Assembly (NCBI RefSeq): GCF_038592905.1
Contig: NZ_CP151943.1
Coordinates: 4,352,501-4,416,500 of the forward strand
Length of the DNA: 64,000 nucleotides
From: Neobacillus sp. FSL H8-0543
Lineage (GTDB): Bacteria; Bacillota; Bacilli; Bacillales; Cytobacillaceae
Direction: 5' to 3'
Positions 30,761-63,752 of the stretch are shown here, piece by piece (the stretch's first letter is position 1; each line of letters begins with the position of its first letter). The position numbers and the translations under genes are program-made. Below the pieces are notes generated by a model. The model saw only the letters and a program-made list of their open reading frames with translations. It did no database searches and was not told where the DNA came from.

Positions 30761-32056
30761 TTGGCTTCAACAATAATCGCATCATTGATTTTTTTATTTA
30801 CGCTTATTTTAGTTATTTGGCAGCCCAAAAATTTATCAATTGGGTGGTCTGCTTGTGGAGGAGCGATTCTCGCGTTACTCTTTCGAGTCGTTGATTTTAA
30901 TGATGTATTGGATGTAACATCCATAGTTTGGAACGCGACCCTTGCATTTATAGCCATTATTATTATTTCACTTATTTTAGATGAAATTGGGTTCTTTGAA
31001 TGGTCAGCCCTTCATATGGCAAGAGCAGCCAAAGGAAATGGTATTCTCATGTTTGTCTATGTTTCCGTATTAGGAGCACTGGTAGCTGCCTTTTTTGCAA
31101 ATGATGGGGCGGCACTTATTTTAACGCCGATTGTGTTGGCGATGGTAAGGAATTTGAAATTCAAAGAAAAAATGGTATTTCCGTTTATTATCGCGAGCGG
31201 ATTTATTGCTGACACTACCTCGCTACCGTTGGTTGTCAGTAACCTAGTTAATATTGTTTCTGCAGACTTTTTCGGGATTGGCTTTGCCGAATTTGCTTCC
31301 AGAATGATTATCCCCAACTTCTTTTCTTTAGGGGCAAGCATCTTGGTTTTATTTATTTATTTTCGTAAGAGTATCCCCAAACAATACGACTTGTCAAAAT
31401 TAAAAATGCCTGACGAAGTGATTCGTGATAAAAAAATGTTTCGTCTCTCCTGGGTCGTATTAGCGATTTTACTGGTTGGCTATTTTGTTAGTGAATTTAT
31501 TGGTATTCCTGTTTCAATCATAGCAGGGGCAGTGGCTATTTTCTTTTTGTTCATGGCTAGAAGAAGTCCTGCAGTTAATATAGGTGCTGTCGTAAAAGGT
31601 GCTCCATGGAACATCGTATTTTTTTCAATAGGTATGTACGTTGTAGTATATGGTTTAAGGAATGTAGGATTGACGAATGTATTAAGCGACCTAATTCAAA
31701 TAACAGCAGACCAAGGGCTATTTGCTGCGACGATGGGAATGGGTTTCATTGCAGCCATTCTTTCTTCAATAATGAATAACATGCCAACCGTAATGATTGA
31801 TGCGCTTGCTATCGCTGATACAAATACAAGCGGTGTGATCCGCGAAGCTCTAATTTACGCAAATGTGATTGGTTCAGATTTAGGTCCAAAGATTACTCCT
31901 ATTGGTTCATTAGCAACCTTATTATGGTTGCATGTGCTATCTCAAAAAGGAGTTAAGATTTCTTGGGGAACCTATTTTAAAACAGGTATTATATTAACGA
32001 TTCCAACCCTGGTTATCACACTACTGGGTCTATATGTTTGGTTATTAATAATTTAA
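30761..32056 (+). CDS. arsB: Arsenite efflux permease, ArsB/NhaD family
   Basis: 431 residues from a TTG start with GGAGGTAAGACA upstream. Ten to twelve hydrophobic helices. [19 protein letters not shown] (about 18-36), [17 protein letters not shown] (about 112-128) and the mirrored [13 protein letters not shown] (about 340-352) are the re-entrant half-repeats of Ars[23 protein letters not shown] near residues 368-389 is a strong ArsB signature. It exports As(III)/Sb(III), and can work alone by proton motive force or with the ArsA ATPase encoded downstream. First gene of the arsenic operon. Confidence 0.92.
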
Positions 32057-32071
32057 AAGGAGAAATGAATC

Positions 32072-32491
32072 ATGTCTAAAAAAACCATTTATTTTCTATG
32101 TACAGGTAATTCATGTCGTAGCCAAATGGCAGAAGGCTGGGCAAAAAAACATTTAGGTCAAGAGTGGGAAGTACGTAGTGCAGGAATTGAAGCACATGGA
32201 CTTAACCCCAATGCTGTAAAAGCAATGCAAGAAGCTGGAATTAATATCTCAAATCAAACATCTGACATTATTGATCCTGAAATTTTAAACAATGCAGAGC
32301 TGGTTGTCACGTTATGTGGTGATGCGGCAGATAAATGCCCAGTTACACCTCCTCAGGTAAAACGAGTTCACTGGGGCTTTGATGACCCAGCAAAAGCAGA
32401 AGGTACCGAAGAAGAAAAATGGGCCTTCTTCCAACGTGTACGGGATGAAATTGGAGAACGTATACATCGCTTTGGGATAACAGGGGAATAA
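32072..32491 (+). CDS. arsC: Arsenate reductase (thioredoxin-type), ArsC
   Basis: 139 residues of the low-molecular-weight phosphotyrosine phosphatase fold. The P-loop CTGNSCR has the nucleophile Cys10 and Cys15. The relay pair Cys82 and Cys89 ([10 protein letters not shown]) is intact, and the DDPAKAEG loop carries the catalytic Asp. This is the pI258/B. subtilis type that reduces As(V) to As(III) with electrons from thioredoxin, not the glutaredoxin type. Product As(III) is the ArsB/ArsA substrate. It starts 16 bp after arsB with AGGAGAA. Confidence 0.95.
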
Positions 32492-32559: not shown

Positions 32560-32907
32560 ATGACAAATAAGAATTCAGACTTGAATCAACTATCCCAAGT
32601 ATTAAAATTACTTGGTGACAAAACAAGGCTGACGATTGCAGCACTATTGTTGAAACGGGAAATGTGTGTCTGTGAATTGCTTGAGGTTTTTGAAATGAGT
32701 CAGCCTTCTATTAGCCAGCATCTTCGGAAATTGAAGGATGCTGGTATGGTGAAAGAAGCACGTAAAGGACAATGGATTTATTATTCTCTAAATATAAATA
32801 ATGAGTTTTACCCTTTGATTGAAAATGTATTAACATTCGTGCCAGATCAAACAGACAAGATTGAACAAATAGAAAAGAGTAATCCCACTCAAAGGTGCGG
32901 GTGTTAG
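32560..32907 (+). CDS. arsR: ArsR/SmtB family As(III)-responsive repressor
   Basis: 115 residues. Winged-helix core with the metalloid site MCVCELLEVF (Cys36 and Cys38 in the ELCVCDL position of helix alpha3) and recognition helix SQPSISQHLRKLKDAG. This is the classical ArsR sensor that leaves DNA when As(III)/Sb(III) binds. An additional CGC (residues 113-115) ends the protein and may provide a further ligand. A palindrome just upstream is its likely operator. It sits between arsC and arsD, not at the front of the operon, so it probably has its own promoter. Confidence 0.93.
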   Translation: MTNKNSDLNQLSQVLKLLGDKTRLTIAALLLKREMCVCELLEVFEMSQPSISQHLRKLKDAGMVKEARKGQWIYYSLNINNEFYPLIENVLTFVPDQTDKIEQIEKSNPTQRCGC

Positions 32908-32938: not shown

Positions 32939-33283
32939 ATGAAACTAGAAATATTTGATCCAGCCATGTGTTGTTCAACGGGGGTATGCGGACCTACAGT
33001 TGACCCTGAATTAGCAAGGGTAGCTTCTGCATTATTTATCCTTGAAGGGAAAGGGTTTTCCATTACGCGCCATAATTTAGGCAGTGAGCCACAGGCATTT
33101 ATTGAAAATACAGCCGTGAATCAACGTTTGAATGAAAGGGGTCTGGATGTGCTGCCCTTGGTTTTTCTTGAAGGGGAAGTGGTGAAAGAAGGAATATATC
33201 CTACAAACGAAGAATTAGCTGCCTGGTTTCACTTAGAAAAAACAGACTTAGTACCAAAAAAATCAGCTAATCAGTTGCTTTAA
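32939..33283 (+). CDS. arsD: ArsD arsenic metallochaperone
   Basis: 114 residues. N-terminal IFDPAMCCSTGVCGP carries Cys11, Cys12 and Cys17, equivalent to the Cys12-Cys13-Cys18 arsenic-transfer site of plasmid R773 ArsD. VLPLVFLEGEVVKEG is the thioredoxin-like core. It binds cytosolic As(III) and hands it to ArsA, raising ATPase affinity. It lacks the extra C-terminal vicinal Cys pairs of R773 ArsD, which are dispensable. It starts 31 bp after arsR and arsA follows at once, a coupled arsDA pair. Confidence 0.94.
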   Translation: MKLEIFDPAMCCSTGVCGPTVDPELARVASALFILEGKGFSITRHNLGSEPQAFIENTAVNQRLNERGLDVLPLVFLEGEVVKEGIYPTNEELAAWFHLEKTDLVPKKSANQLL

Positions 33284-33297
33284 AAGAGGTGTACGAG

Positions 33298-35067
33298 ATG
33301 TTTCCGTTGTTTAAGCCAGAAAATTTACCATTAACTCCGTTTATGTTTTTTACAGGAAAGGGGGGGGTGGGGAAGACGTCGGCAGCAAGCGCCTTAGCAA
33401 TTCATTTGGCCAATCAAGGAAAACAGGTGTTAATTGTCTCAACTGACCCCGCATCAAACCTTCAGGATGTATTTGAAACAGATATTACAAATAACATTCA
33501 GCCAGTGCCAAATAAATCAGGCCTCTTTGCTTGTAACTTAGATCCGGAAGATGCAGCAAGAGCTTATAGAGAAAAAGTAGTCGGACCCTATAAAGGAAAG
33601 CTTCCTGATAGTGTGATTCAATCAATGGAAGAGCAGCTTTCGGGTGCCTGTACAGTTGAAATTGCTGCTTTTGATGAATTTACCAATTTGCTTGCAAATC
33701 CATTGGTTCAAGCTAAATATGACCATATTATTTTTGATACGGCTCCAACGGGCCATACATTAAGACTTTTACAATTACCTACAGCATGGACGGACTATTT
33801 AAATGAAAATACTCATGGTGCAAGCTGTCTCGGTCCCTTATCTGGACTTGGCGAAAAAAAAGAGCTATATGCACAAACGGTAAAAGCACTGTCAGATAGG
33901 GAAAAAACTACTTTAATTTTAGTCGCACGACCAGATGGAAATTCACTCCAGGAGGCAGACAAAGCTTCACGTGAATTAGTTGAAATTGGCATGGTACAGC
34001 AAATCCTGTTAGTGAATGGAGTTCTTCAAGCATTTACAAAAGGTGACCAGGTTTCAGAAGCTTTTTTCACAAAACAAAAACAGGCTCTCTCACTTCTTCC
34101 TGATGGTTTATGCGAAATGCCCATTTATGAAATTCAGCTTGTTCCTTTTTCTTTAACCGGGATTGATTCCTTAGAGAAGTTGTTCGGGGAAAAAGAACCA
34201 GAGCGACAAGCAGAATTTGTAAATGAAGAAATTCCCTTGCCTCCGTTTAATGAGCTGATTGATGACTTGGAGCAGCGCGGAATAAAGGTTATATTTACCA
34301 TGGGAAAAGGCGGGGTTGGAAAAACAACAATTGCCTCGGCGATTGCAATTGGGCTAAGTGGAAGAGGGCACCAGGTTCATTTAACAACCACTGACCCTGC
34401 TGCACATTTGAGCAATTATTTCAATGAAAAAGAAAATTATAGAAATCTCACTATCAGTCGAATTGATCCAAAAGTGGAAGTGGAAAAATACCGAAGTGAG
34501 GTATTAAGTAAAGTCTCGAATGATCTTGATGAGGATGCAATTGCTTATATAAAAGAGGATTTAGAATCACCATGTACCGAGGAAATTGCTATTTTTCAAG
34601 CCTTTGCCCATGTTGTGGGCAGATCAAAAGAAGAAATAGTCGTTATCGATACAGCTCCAACAGGACATACCCTCCTCTTATTGGATGCAGCCAGCTCATA
34701 TCATAAGGAATTAGAGCGTTCTACTGGTCAAATTCCTGAAAATGTGCAAGAATTATTGCCACGGTTACGAAATCAAAGTGAAACTGAAATCGTCATTACT
34801 ACGCTTCCAGAAGCAACACCCGTATTAGAAGCAGATCGACTTCAGAAGGATCTTAAGCGTGCGGGAATTGTTCCCCATTGGTGGGTCATTAATCAAAGTT
34901 TATTTGCAACACATACAATTGATCCTGTCCTAAGTGGAAGAGCAATGACCGAAAAGGTTTGGATCGAAAAGGTAAGAAATGAATTATCGGAGCGAATGGC
35001 TGTCATTCCATGGCTAGATTCAGAAAATGAAGGAATCTCTCAGATAAAACAACTTTTAATAAACTAG
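33298..35067 (+). CDS. arsA: ArsA arsenical pump-driving ATPase
   Basis: 589 residues from the ATG at 33298 (RBS AAGAGGTG; a GTG at 33289 is buried in it). Two homologous halves, each with a P-loop GKGGVGKT (residues 20-27 and about 336-343) and the switch motif DTAPTGHTL. This is the duplicated bacterial ArsA layout. The metalloid-site cysteines are seen as SGACTVE in half 1 and ESPCTEE in half 2, with HGASCLGPL in the first half. It energises ArsB for active As(III) extrusion on the cytoplasmic face. The selenoprotein gene starts 10 bp after its stop. Confidence 0.95.
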   Translation: MFPLFKPENLPLTPFMFFTGKGGVGKTSAASALAIHLANQGKQVLIVSTDPASNLQDVFETDITNNIQPVPNKSGLFACNLDPEDAARAYREKVVGPYKGKLPDSVIQSMEEQLSGACTVEIAAFDEFTNLLANPLVQAKYDHIIFDTAPTGHTLRLLQLPTAWTDYLNENTHGASCLGPLSGLGEKKELYAQTVKALSDREKTTLILVARPDGNSLQEADKASRELVEIGMVQQILLVNGVLQAFTKGDQVSEAFFTKQKQALSLLPDGLCEMPIYEIQLVPFSLTGIDSLEKLFGEKEPERQAEFVNEEIPLPPFNELIDDLEQRGIKVIFTMGKGGVGKTTIASAIAIGLSGRGHQVHLTTTDPAAHLSNYFNEKENYRNLTISRIDPKVEVEKYRSEVLSKVSNDLDEDAIAYIKEDLESPCTEEIAIFQAFAHVVGRSKEEIVVIDTAPTGHTLLLLDAASSYHKELERSTGQIPENVQELLPRLRNQSETEIVITTLPEATPVLEADRLQKDLKRAGIVPHWWVINQSLFATHTIDPVLSGRAMTEKVWIEKVRNELSERMAVIPWLDSENEGISQIKQLLIN

Positions 35068-35077
35068 GAGTGAGAGC

Positions 35078-35356
35078 ATGAAAATTACTGATGCTGCACG
35101 TGATTTATTAATTCAAGTGCTAAAAGATAAAAATGAAAATGGTATTCGCGTTTATTTCGCAGGCTTTGGCTGAGGTCAGCCACAAATAGGACTGGCTCTG
35201 GATGAGCCGGAAGCAGAAGATAAAGTGATAACAATTAATGAGATCCAAGTAGCGTTTGACCCTAATATCGAGGCTTACACTGAAGGCCTGACACTTGAAT
35301 TTGACGAAATGAATAACGGGTTAGTTATACAGGGTAATGAAAGTGAATGCTGTTAA
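35078..35356 (+). CDS. HesB/IscA-like selenoprotein (in-frame TGA = selenocysteine 32)
   Basis: 92 codons from the ATG at 35078 (RBS AGGAGTGAGAG), with TGA at 35171-35173 as codon 32 and TAA at 35354. The frame stays protein-like on both sides: RVYFAGFG-U-GQPQIGLALDE matches HesB-like proteins, where this position is Cys (AGFGCGGP) or, in some anaerobic and environmental bacteria, Sec. The domain is the short IscA/HesB beta-barrel that binds Fe-S clusters or metal. The C-terminal CGC of IscA is replaced by a terminal ECC. It is the sixth gene of the ars operon, 10 bp after arsA, followed by a terminator. A role in As(III) or Fe-S handling is inference. A standard gene caller would truncate or miss it. 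Confidence 0.87.
35192..35210 (+). promoter_or_regulatory. Bacterial SECIS hairpin for the HesB-like selenoprotein
   Basis: CTGGCTC pairs with GAGCCGG (six Watson-Crick pairs and one G-U) around a TGGAT loop. The loop begins 25 nt after the TGA and has G at its second position. Both fit the known bSECIS rules (apical loop about 16-37 nt from UGA, G among the first two loop bases). This is the predicted SelB-binding element within the coding region. Confidence 0.7.
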
Positions 35357-35372
35357 AAAAATATCCAAAGAA

Positions 35373-35407
35373 AATGCCGCAAAAGATGCTTTTGTGGCAT
35401 TTTTTTT
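35373..35407 (+). terminator. Terminator closing the arsenic operon
   Basis: AATGCCGCAAAAG pairs with CTTTTGTGGCATT (one G-U) over an ATG loop and is followed by eight T. It lies 17 bp after the selenoprotein stop, so the selenoprotein gene is inside the ars transcript. Confidence 0.92.
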
Positions 35408-35493
35408 GCTTTTAGTAAATACTTAAAGTATTAAGGTAGAGGAAAATGTAATTTATGTAGCCCAATAATTAGTACAAACAAAGGAGAGTTCCT

Positions 35494-47421: not shown

Positions 47422-47453
47422 AAAAAAAGACGTCTGAATAAACAGACGTCTTT
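47422..47453 (-). terminator. Terminator of the putative small RNA
   Basis: AAAGACGTCTG pairs with CAGACGTCTTT over a short loop, followed by seven T on the minus strand. Confidence 0.85.
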
Positions 47454-47534
47454 GCGTATTGAGGCGAAAAACCACACTCCACATGTGTCTTCCAAAAAGG
47501 AACGTTTCTCGGCTTACACAATTCAGCTCATCGC
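47422..47534 (-). ncRNA. Putative small RNA, about 113 nt, with its own promoter and terminator
   Basis: On the minus strand a near-ideal promoter precedes, and a strong terminator ends, a segment without a credible gene. Inside it, GAGAAAC can pair with GTTTTTC, and TTCC with GGAA over TTTTT, so the transcript can fold into an extended hairpin. I do not recognise an Rfam family. Because the AIM24 gene begins 158 bp further on, a riboswitch/attenuator leader is the alternative. Confidence 0.5.
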
Positions 47535-51789: not shown

Positions 51790-51943
51790 TTAATCAGCCG
51801 TTGCACGAGATTAGATTTATAAAATACGCTTATTCATAGTTTTATAGGCAGTTTGGATAAGGAAGTGAAGTAAAGCTATCACGTTGTAATTTGGTGAATT
51901 TACACATGGCTTATGGTATAAGCTAATAGGAGGATTTTTTTAC
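51790..51943 (+). other. Long 5' untranslated leader of the cold-shock gene
   Basis: About 150 nt without an ORF between a probable promoter near 51755-51790 and the csp start. It contains TGTAAATT-type inverted segments (TGTAATTTGGTGAATTTACA at about 51885-51904). By analogy with csp leaders it may refold in the cold; not shown by sequence alone. Confidence 0.4.
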
Positions 51944-52144
51944 ATGAAAAACGGTAAAGTAAAATGGTTCAACTCTGAAAAAGGATTCGGATTCATCGAA
52001 GCTGAAGATGGAAACGACGTATTCGTTCACTATTCTGCAATCCAAACAGAAGGTTTCAAAACTTTAGAAGAAGGTCAAGAAGTTTCTTTCGAAGTTGTTG
52101 AAGGAGCTCGTGGACCACAAGCTGCTAACGTAACAAAGAAATAA
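51944..52144 (+). CDS. Cold-shock protein, CspA/B family
   Basis: 66 residues, one S1-like cold-shock domain. RNP1 KGFGFIE (about 14-20) and RNP2 VFVHY (about 27-31) are present; the usual His in FVHF is followed by Tyr here. It binds single-stranded RNA/DNA as a chaperone. AATAGGAGG RBS precedes the ATG. A long AT-rich 5' leader (from a TTAAAAT-type -10 near 51783, about 150 nt) is typical of thermoregulated csp mRNAs. Codon use is strongly biased (GAA, GAC/AAC), indicating high expression. Confidence 0.95.
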
Positions 52145-52164
52145 TTCCAATTGAAACTAAGTTT

Positions 52165-52196
52165 AACAGTCCGGCCAATGTGTCGGACTGTTTTTT
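52165..52196 (+). terminator. Terminator after the cold-shock gene
   Basis: AACAGTCCG pairs with CGGACTGTT over a loop, followed by six T. Confidence 0.88.
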
Positions 52197-61797: not shown

Positions 61798-61868
61798 AAA
61801 GTTCGCTTGAACAATAGGTATAATAGAGATAAAGTAGTAGAGAATGCACTGAAAAGTAGGTGGTAAAC

Positions 61869-63752
61869 ATGGATAAAAGATATTTTACAATAGGTATGGC
61901 GGGACATATTGACCATGGGAAAACTTCATTAACAAAAGCGTTAACCAATGTCGATACGGACCGTTTAAAAGAAGAAAAAGAGCGACAAATTTCAATTGAG
62001 CTCGGATTTGCTCCATTATATGAAGACCAAGAAATACAAATATCTGTCATTGATGTACCGGGACATGAGCGTTTTATTAGGCAAATGATTGCAGGTGTTG
62101 CAGGGATTGACTTGGTGGTACTTGTGGTTGCTGCTGATGAAGGTGTGATGCCTCAAACCAGGGAGCATCTTGATATTCTGAAGTTTTTAGGTGTCAAAAA
62201 TGGAATTATTGCGATTACAAAAATTGATCGTGTCGATGAAGACTTTACCGAACTTGTGAAAGATGAAATTTTAGAAGAGCTAACGGGGACAGTATTTGAA
62301 GATTCACCTTTTGTTCTAGTTGACAGCCTTTCAAAAAAGGGGATAGAAGAAATAAAAGAATTAATTATTCAGACCCTAAGAGAGCGAGAAATGCGTGATG
62401 CTAAGGGAGCATTTCGTTTGCCAATTGATCAGGTGTTTACAGTGAAAGGGCAGGGAACTGTTGTTCGTGGAACTGTTTATGAAGGTTCCGTTGAGGAAGG
62501 ACAATTACTAACTATTATGCCACAAGGCTTAGAAGTAAAAGCCCGCCAAATCCAGGTGCATCATAAATCTGCACAAAAGGCCTATGCAGGACAAAGGACG
62601 GCTATTAATCTTTCAAGTGTATCGAAAGAAGATCTTGAACGAGGGGATGTTCTCGTTTCATCTGAGCATTTTAATGTCACGAAAACATTGGATGTTGCGA
62701 TTCATGTAGTCGATGACCTCGATCATCTTGTTAAGCAAAGGATGCCAGTCAAACTACATATTGGAACAGCGGAAGTGATGGGACGGATTGTATTCTTTGA
62801 CCGTAATGAGCTTAAGGAAGAAAACGGAGAAATCCTATGTCAGCTTCGCCTAGAGGAAGAAATTCTGACGAAACGCGGAGACCGTTTTATTCTTCGCCGA
62901 CCAAGCCCGCAAGAAACCATCGGTGGCGGTTGGGTGATTGACCCCCGTGGGAACAAATATCGTTTTGGTAATCAAACGATTGATGAACTGGAGAAGAAAC
63001 GAGTTGGTTCACCAAAGGAACGAATTACCGCTGCACTATATGAAGCAAAAAGCTTACCGCTTAACGAGTTAATTAAACGGACGGCTTTGGATGAACTCAC
63101 ACTAAACGAATTTTTAGAAGATAGTGAGTTTGTTTTATATAATGGAAAAGAATTTACCCTCCAAATGTTGATAAACTCGATAGAGGAAGACATCTATGAT
63201 CGACTCCATGAGTTCCATCAAGGGTATTCAATGAAAACTGGGGTCAATAAGGCTGTGCTTTTTCAAAATATGGAAAAAAGGTTCCCTAAACCACTTCTTG
63301 ATTTTGTTGTCGAAAATGGGATTTCAAATGGAGTTTTTAATCGGAAAGAACAATTTGTTTCACTTGCCAGCTTTGTCCCGCATGTACCGAAAAGCTGGCA
63401 AAAGCGAACAGAAAATATGCTGGAGGATTTGAGGAAGGATGGGCGAAAGGTTCGTTATTATAAGGAGTATTTTGCTGCATCCGGGATTCCTGATAGTTTA
63501 GAGGCTGATTTAAGGCGCTTCCTTGAAGATCAGGGGCTAGTCGTCCATTTGGATGAACAGTTTGCCTATCATGGTGAGATATTTAATGAGGCTGTTTCTA
63601 AGCTTCGCTTGGGGACAGGGGAAGAGTTTGAGGTGGGTGATGCCAAAGACATTCTTGATCTTTCACGTAAATATATGATTCCATTTTTAGAAAGATTGGA
63701 TTCAAAAGGATTGACTAAACGAGTTGAAAATAAACGAGTCTGGAAGAAATGA
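61869..63752 (+). CDS. selB: Selenocysteine-specific translation elongation factor SelB
   Basis: 627 residues from the ATG at 61869 (RBS AGGTGG; a GTG at 61860 overlaps it). GTPase motifs G1 GHIDHGKTS (about 12-20), G3 DVPGHE (about 63-68) and G4 TKID (about 122-125) are SelB-type. The EF-Tu-like domains follow to about 370 (VKGQGTVVRGTV). The C-terminal winged-helix array (about 375-627) binds the SECIS hairpin. It delivers Sec-tRNA at UGA codons with SECIS. It provides the decoding factor for the HesB-like selenoprotein at 35078. selA, selD and tRNA-Sec are not in the window. Confidence 0.96.
   Translation: MDKRYFTIGMAGHIDHGKTSLTKALTNVDTDRLKEEKERQISIELGFAPLYEDQEIQISVIDVPGHERFIRQMIAGVAGIDLVVLVVAADEGVMPQTREHLDILKFLGVKNGIIAITKIDRVDEDFTELVKDEILEELTGTVFEDSPFVLVDSLSKKGIEEIKELIIQTLREREMRDAKGAFRLPIDQVFTVKGQGTVVRGTVYEGSVEEGQLLTIMPQGLEVKARQIQVHHKSAQKAYAGQRTAINLSSVSKEDLERGDVLVSSEHFNVTKTLDVAIHVVDDLDHLVKQRMPVKLHIGTAEVMGRIVFFDRNELKEENGEILCQLRLEEEILTKRGDRFILRRPSPQETIGGGWVIDPRGNKYRFGNQTIDELEKKRVGSPKERITAALYEAKSLPLNELIKRTALDELTLNEFLEDSEFVLYNGKEFTLQMLINSIEEDIYDRLHEFHQGYSMKTGVNKAVLFQNMEKRFPKPLLDFVVENGISNGVFNRKEQFVSLASFVPHVPKSWQKRTENMLEDLRKDGRKVRYYKEYFAASGIPDSLEADLRRFLEDQGLVVHLDEQFAYHGEIFNEAVSKLRLGTGEEFEVGDAKDILDLSRKYMIPFLERLDSKGLTKRVENKRVWKK

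Follow-up and report, generated by a model that had tools for sequence, protein, structure and literature searches.

The last gene of an arsenic-resistance operon of the soil bacterium Neobacillus sp. FSL H8-0543, here called hesB(U), is almost certainly a selenoprotein gene and a recurrent neighbour of ars genes. The comparisons of genes and genomes given below indicate that it represents a genuine subfamily of selenoproteins, whose members are found repeatedly in ars operons. The stretch of DNA that was analysed (the window, 64,000 nucleotides) is part of a single 5.3 Mb contig, and the gene order of the operon in it is arsB-arsC-arsR-arsD-arsA-hesB(U), all on the + strand. These genes encode the arsenite efflux pump ArsB (30761..32056; PF02040, E 4e-223), the thioredoxin-type arsenate reductase ArsC, of LMWPc fold (32072..32491; PF01451, E 4.7e-21, and an annotated relative), the ArsR repressor (32560..32907; PF01022, E 5.3e-17), the ArsD metallochaperone (32939..33283; PF06953, E 2.3e-39), the pump ATPase ArsA (33289..35067; PF02374, E 7e-101) and a HesB/IscA-type selenoprotein of 92 aa (35078..35356), the latter identified from its frame, profiles, homologues, hairpin and dN/dS.

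The initial annotation had described a 92-codon frame 10 bp after arsA, with a single TGA at codon 32 inside an AGFG-x-GQP block, and this was confirmed on the sequence. The frame runs from an ATG at 35078 to a TAA at 35354-35356, a spacer of 10 nt separates it from the end of arsA at 35067, and its only in-frame TGA (35171..35173) is codon 32, in a block that reads YFAGFG-U-GQPQIG. A terminator had been placed 17 bp after the TAA; an intrinsic-terminator-like stem-loop with a 20-pair stem is indeed present at the end of the operon (35366..35408, +), at a distance of 9 nt rather than 17. The proposal that a selenocysteine-containing HesB/IscA-like protein is the last gene of the ars operon is supported by our results.

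The TGA at codon 32 very likely encodes selenocysteine (U32), because the machinery for its insertion is present, the codon is conserved, the sequence after it is under selection, a hairpin follows it and its occurrence is associated with that of SelB. SelA, SelB, SelD and tRNA-Sec were all found in the host genome, with selB, the gene of the Sec-specific elongation factor, inside the window and 26 kb downstream of hesB(U) (61860..63752, +; TIGR00475, 339 bits against a cut-off of 242), and SelA and SelD elsewhere in the genome. The tRNA-Sec is encoded by two genes with a TCA anticodon (C1:4291423, L005, and C1:4786641, L006). Homologues of hesB(U) were detected at E <=1e-6 in 135 of the 193 host-family genomes searched, and among the matches listed all but two carried exactly one TGA, the exceptions being G010, which has a TAA, and G032, which has no stop. 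The nearest loci in named genomes, among the best 80 of 105 relatives, were those of a Neobacillus metagenome-assembled genome (87% identity) and of Bacillus sp. MRMR6 (82%). Downstream of the TGA, dN/dS was 0.085, 0.108, 0.059 and 0.059 in the four relatives compared, which indicates purifying selection in all four, the synonymous distances being saturated for the last two values (L053 and L054). The TGA forms an invariant column of the alignment, and the exchange of selenocysteine for cysteine at residue 32, which an alignment had been expected to reveal, was found in the form of stop-free homologues with a cysteine at the site. A conserved in-frame TGA with cysteine in homologues is what a selenoprotein gene displays.

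A SECIS-like hairpin (35192..35210, +), supported by its fold and by covariation, lies closely 3' of the TGA, as in selenoprotein genes. Its stem is formed by positions 35192-35198 and 35204-35210 around a UGGAU loop that begins 25 nt past the TGA. Folding of a 51-nt stretch gave a z-score of -3.05, with 1 of 200 shuffles as good, while stretches of 41 nt (z -1.23, 22 of 200) and 81 nt (z -1.78, 9 of 200) were less striking. Alignment of 87 of the 88 distinct sequences extracted (L080 was left out) showed that 97.9% of the cells were paired and that double-sided changes occurred in five of the seven pairs; none of 500 shuffled alignments was as high on any of five measures, and pairing dropped to 17-44% when the register was slid. 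The hairpin is part of the minimum-energy fold of 65 of these 87 relatives and missing from that of the other 22. An Rfam search with the hairpin matched no family at E values up to 1.

The distribution of the two forms was then compared with that of SelB. Matches at E <=1e-10 were present in 183 of 397 genomes, from 65 of 135 genera, of an order-wide sample. Outside the host family, SelB was found in 76 of 77 genomes with a TGA copy and in 8 of 45 genomes with stop-free copies only, among the matches listed (Fisher p 3e-22; the table covers 122 of the 170 matching genomes, and G224, which has both kinds, was counted as TGA). Within the host family, 23 of the 193 genomes lack SelB and nine of these 23 have a homologue, which is stop-free in seven and has a TGA in two (G146 and G171). 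The initial annotation had held that a TGA in relatives lacking SelB would speak against selenocysteine; such copies do occur in at least three genomes (G146, G171 and G563), while the opposite was seen in the 76 of 77 genomes outside the family, among the matches listed. G146 is a draft, 94% complete and in about 720 contigs, and G171 and G563 are both 99% complete; a search of the three with the SelB of the window found nothing closer than 32-37% identity, in frames some 400 residues long that look like other factors. Stop-free copies were also observed in the SelB-positive genomes G005, G030, G032, G039, G106 and G128. Cysteine takes the place of selenocysteine mostly where the Sec machinery was not found.

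Read with cysteine at the TGA, the protein scored 32.5 bits against PF01521 (Fe-S_biosyn, HesB/IscA), above the gathering cut-off of 26.3. A PF01521 search of the host genome DNA returned four other places and not hesB(U), and three other PF01521 proteins of the host exceed the cut-off. Its best NCBIfam matches were two HesB selenoprotein models, both under their cut-offs: TIGR01911 (HesB_rel_seleno) with 51.7 against 66.35 bits, and NF038090 (IscA_HesB_Se) with 45.9 against 85 bits. The proteins described by TIGR01911 resemble hesB(U) in being small, of HesB/IscA type and with selenocysteine replacing a conserved cysteine, but hesB(U) falls under the membership cut-off. Filing under either model was rejected, all seven members tested (hesB(U) and six others) being under both cut-offs. 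Scores against the IscA, SufA and ErpA equivalogs were 15.6, 18.6 and 26.5 bits, for cut-offs of 150.6, 136.2 and 117, respectively.

The AlphaFold model of the protein (mean pLDDT 88) had as its best PDB matches in Foldseek the E. coli IscA structures 1s98 and 1r94 (E 1.1e-5 and TM 0.77 for the top match). The predicted fold is thus that of IscA, whereas the identity is 23-24% and selenocysteine stands at the first ligand. The central motif cysteine of IscA and its two C-terminal cysteines bind iron or a cluster, and A-type carriers in general have three thiol-type ligands, one central and two C-terminal. This three-ligand pattern can be recognized in hesB(U), in U32, which falls on the cysteine of the GCSG motif of the IscA-like protein 1nwb in a profile alignment, and in the C-terminal pair C91-C92 (35348..35353, +), each at least 90% conserved. 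The C-terminus of IscA is CxC, for which hesB(U) has CC; residues 91-92, in the last block of the model, have a pLDDT of 59, which is low confidence. From this pattern we infer that U32 and C91-C92 would form a single soft-metal site on an IscA fold.

The Sec proteins of the host family mostly have G-U-G-x-P at the site, and the 32 distinct stop-free proteins linked to ars genes have C-C-G in 29 cases, G-C-G in two and a glutamate in one. The C-terminal cysteines were counted in 145 distinct proteins, CC being scored within the last 7 residues. Among ars-linked proteins, CC was seen in 48 of 49 with Sec (the remaining one has one C) and in 26 of 31 with Cys (one C in each of the five others); among Sec proteins in other places, it was seen in 17 of 20 linked to SpoVR and in 29 of the other 42, 13 of these 42 having only one cysteine. 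The ars-linked protein with glutamate at the Sec/Cys position (L294, genome G502) has also lost its C-terminal cysteines, a pattern that fits one putative site to which position 32 and the C-terminus both contribute. Two further copies do not test the single-site idea well: L075, which adjoins SpoVR and has cysteine at the site, and L081, a Sec copy with an additional TAG, neither of which has a C-terminal cysteine.

Comparison of the operons of relatives, which the initial annotation had proposed as a check, showed that the gene recurs with ars genes, which were scored if they lay on its strand and no more than 6 kb upstream of it. The 80 loci from named genomes, the best of 105 relatives, comprised 55 loci with a TGA and ars genes, 11 with SpoVR/DsrE-type neighbours, 13 with other neighbours and one ars locus with a TAA. 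A second set, centred on the host family, held 110 loci picked by search rank, with SelB-less genomes and four named plasmids included deliberately, and its ratios are therefore not frequencies; it overlaps the first, and the two were never summed. Its 93 Sec loci (L080 counted as Sec) had ars genes in 44 cases, a DSP neighbour only in one, SpoVR/DsrE-type neighbours in 21 and a place elsewhere in 27, and its 16 Cys loci had ars genes in 12 (L073 and L077 being the same locus, reached twice), DSP in three and SpoVR in one; one further locus has a TAA. The gene was found directly after arsA, after arsA with DSP and trxB genes in either order, or after arsC in short arsR-arsB/acr3-arsC operons. 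Of the 55 TGA loci with ars genes in the first set (best 80 of 105 relatives), 53 were found to have arsC, and in 13 neither arsA nor arsD was found; ars-linked TGA copies are found, for example, on plasmid p1 of Cytobacillus firmus, which has no gene listed under the match, and in Mesobacillus selenatarsenatis SF-1 (L160), where the gene order is arsA-hesB(U)-DSP-trxB. This recurrent place across species is that of an accessory gene of ars operons.

The picture was different outside the host family, where 40 neighbourhoods (20 TGA and 20 stop-free) were picked by hand down the match list. Genes of the ars type lay upstream of all 20 stop-free copies and of 5 of the 20 TGA copies (L256, L257, L261, L269 and L271), and no ars gene was found near the other 15 (among them L258-L260, L272-L275, L284 and L285). 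Linkage of the Sec form to ars genes is thus mainly a feature of the host family, the wider Sec-HesB family often residing elsewhere. A second, non-ars home (L064, L069, L070 and others) was recognized by eye, after spoVR and before CsoR-like, rhodanese, TusA-like and DsrE-like genes. At L173, again by eye, hesB(U) follows an arsR-like gene, an ArsP-like permease gene and a gene for a small thioredoxin-like protein.

A tree of the homologues (92 columns, 145 rows) requires at least four Sec/Cys residue changes and at least 15 changes of ars context; 75 of its 142 inner branches are open, and because of this poor resolution only rough counts were used. At one locus the history can be read from an occupied and an empty version: on a Mesobacillus persicus contig (L058, L214), arsRBCDA lies between spoVR and hesB(U), while on an M. 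maritimus contig (L057, L181) spoVR is followed by hesB(U) with no ars operon between them; the lipoprotein-like gene that follows hesB(U) is alike, by eye, at both. Two Cytobacillus-type loci (L298 and L299) also have spoVR upstream of an ars operon ending in hesB(U). At L057, an 18-bp exact match to the 3' end of the L058 arsA was found 42 nt before hesB, compared with 46 nt in L058, and it reads as the probable scar of a lost operon. A search for such scars upstream of stand-alone copies (53 loci) returned seven matches at E <=1e-3, where shuffled sets gave 0.25 on average. Judged by position, only those of L057 and L114 (a 47-nt arsA-like match upstream of hesB(U)) look like remnants of arsA coding sequence, and the other five may be shared leader sequence. 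Broken arsA fragments adjoin an intact hesB(U) at L059. Since L057, L059 and L114 keep hesB(U), the gene can persist after the loss of arsA. At L063 (genome G010), the operon that has the TAA at the Sec position also has a truncated arsA; in the sister of L063, L066, the codon is TGA and the arsA frame spans 592 aa.

The two halves of this association have been described separately. HesB-like selenoproteins have been catalogued as a selenoprotein family since at least 2006 (PMC1794560), are also covered in PMC9312934 and are counted, in a 2026 review, among the selenoproteins whose functions are largely uncharacterised (PMC13188914); the passages available of PMC1794560 and PMC13188914 mention no ars operon for them. 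HesB genes in turn are known from ars operons: the ars1 operon of Bacillus sp. CDB3 is arsRYCDATorf7orf8, with a HesB-like orf7 (PMC4562236, PMC5481582) and an arsT that encodes a thioredoxin reductase (PMC12607644), and hesB is present in Exiguobacterium ars operons, where HesB increased 8.2-fold at 8% salt, as arsA, arsR and arsD also increased (PMC8779447). Like hesB(U), these genes are HesB-like and share their ars operon with arsA and arsD, and gene sets similar to that of CDB3 ars1, with arsT and a DSP gene, recur among the hesB(U) loci. The difference, by the descriptions given in the parts of those accounts that we could consult, is that selenium goes unmentioned in them, and we infer that CDB3 orf7 and Exiguobacterium hesB have cysteine at the site. 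A 2013 study by Zheng reportedly had arsATorf7orf8 as its subject. The combination of selenocysteine and an ars operon was not found in the literature searched, which consisted of titles, starts of abstracts and passages, mostly from outside subscription journals. This apparently overlooked selenoprotein group is added here to a resistance system that is among the best studied, and it joins two elements, selenium and arsenic, with a strong mutual chemistry. The occurrence of Sec and Cys versions at the same operon position makes it possible to test directly what is gained by the use of selenium, and the ars link provides a condition under which a HesB-like selenoprotein can be tested.

On balance, the best overall explanation, which we consider probable, is that hesB(U) encodes a selenoprotein of A-type fold that serves the ars operon in a proposed As(III)/Fe-S role. 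The gene is probably arsenic-inducible, judging from its last place in the ars operon. As(III) takes three soft ligands, so that a selenol and two thiols would suit it. In the mechanism that we tentatively favour, the predicted triad of the U32 selenol and the C91-C92 dithiol would hold As(III) or, alternatively, remove it from the sites of Fe-S assembly, and the supply of Fe-S clusters could in this way be kept up during the export of arsenite by the pump. With selenocysteine, binding and exchange would be more rapid than with the Cys-Cys form found elsewhere. The stronger reading that selenocysteine acts as an arsenic ligand in resistance, in a selenol-dithiol As(III) carrier or sink of the ars operon for which Cys-Cys substitutes where the Sec pathway is missing, is one that we regard as possible and somewhat doubtful; if it is true, the lineages hold a natural series of selenium-for-sulfur exchanges. 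The 15 of 20 TGA copies away from ars genes outside the host family led us to lower slightly our estimates both of the favoured mechanism and of selenocysteine as an arsenic ligand.

The initial annotation had also suggested an ArsD-like sink. The hesB(U) product would be like ArsD in one sense alone, as an ars-operon protein that may carry As(III) on three ligands; however, PF06953 (ArsD) was absent from the Pfam matches of its protein, and the window has a separate arsD. A sink of this kind tied to ArsA is partly contradicted by the 13 of 55 ars-linked TGA loci in which neither arsA nor arsD was found and by the copies that outlive arsA, which argue against a role confined to ArsA.

The same observations bear on a serious competitor, which we rate as almost as likely as the favoured mechanism and, like it, at less than an even chance: a plain Fe-S carrier of A-type under arsenic control, which would replace IscA/SufA function knocked out by arsenite or oxidative stress and would not handle arsenic. 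Its fold and family are of IscA type, the non-ars copies often adjoin the sulfur-relay-like genes seen by eye (DsrE, TusA and rhodanese), stand-alone copies persist after arsA, and 13 of the 55 ars copies, among the best 80 of 105 relatives, manage with neither arsA nor arsD. The many Sec copies away from ars genes imply that the basic function may not concern arsenic, and the 15 of 20 such copies outside the host family raised our estimate of this explanation slightly. However, the protein scores far under the cut-offs of the IscA, SufA and ErpA equivalogs, the host has its three other PF01521 proteins above the cut-off, and the recurrent coupling of both Sec and Cys forms to ars operons asks for an arsenic-specific role.

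An improbable alternative is that the selenol is a redox partner of arsenate reduction, with U32 and C91 or C92 forming a selenenylsulfide that TrxB would reduce and that would help ArsC or the DSP-type phosphatase. The trxB and dual-specificity phosphatase genes adjoining hesB(U) in many operons would agree with such a role, as would arsC, found at 53 of the 55 TGA loci with ars genes (best 80 of 105 relatives), but no CxxU motif was found around the selenocysteine, the fold is IscA-like and not thioredoxin-like, and the operon of the window has neither a TrxB nor a DSP gene. The explanation that the TGA is a real stop, leaving a pseudogene or a 31-residue product, draws on the TGA copies in at least three genomes without detectable SelB and on the TAA of G010 beside a truncated arsA, and was rejected as very unlikely indeed on account of the purifying selection downstream of the TGA, the compensatory changes in the hairpin, the TGA-SelB association and the stop-free Cys homologues at the same operon position.

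Several minor observations were made on the homologues, the host genome and the window. The five Cytobacillus plasmid matches all had no gene listed under the match, in a gene table that is incomplete, which suggests that annotation misses hesB(U) on these plasmids. Some of the plasmid homologues among H6, H8-H13, H18 and H19 are annotated as 'adhesin', probably a misnaming, and the plasmid matches H8 and H12 are Cys forms in ars operons. The host SelD gene (C1:5249233-5250159, L297) has an in-frame TGA of its own, a single one, in an SKAG-U-GCKIG block. A SECIS loop common to hesB(U) and SelD was considered and rejected, as the folds differ (UGGAU in hesB(U), CUGAA in the hairpin after the SelD TGA), and no support was drawn from this comparison. 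The two host tRNA-Sec genes differ at 2 of 97 bases, and the frame beside the second (C1:4786641) resembles, by eye, a tyrosine integrase, which suggests an element integrated at selC. Rfam matches elsewhere in the window were to the BsrF sRNA (47429-47534, -) and the cspA thermoregulator (51835-52195, +).
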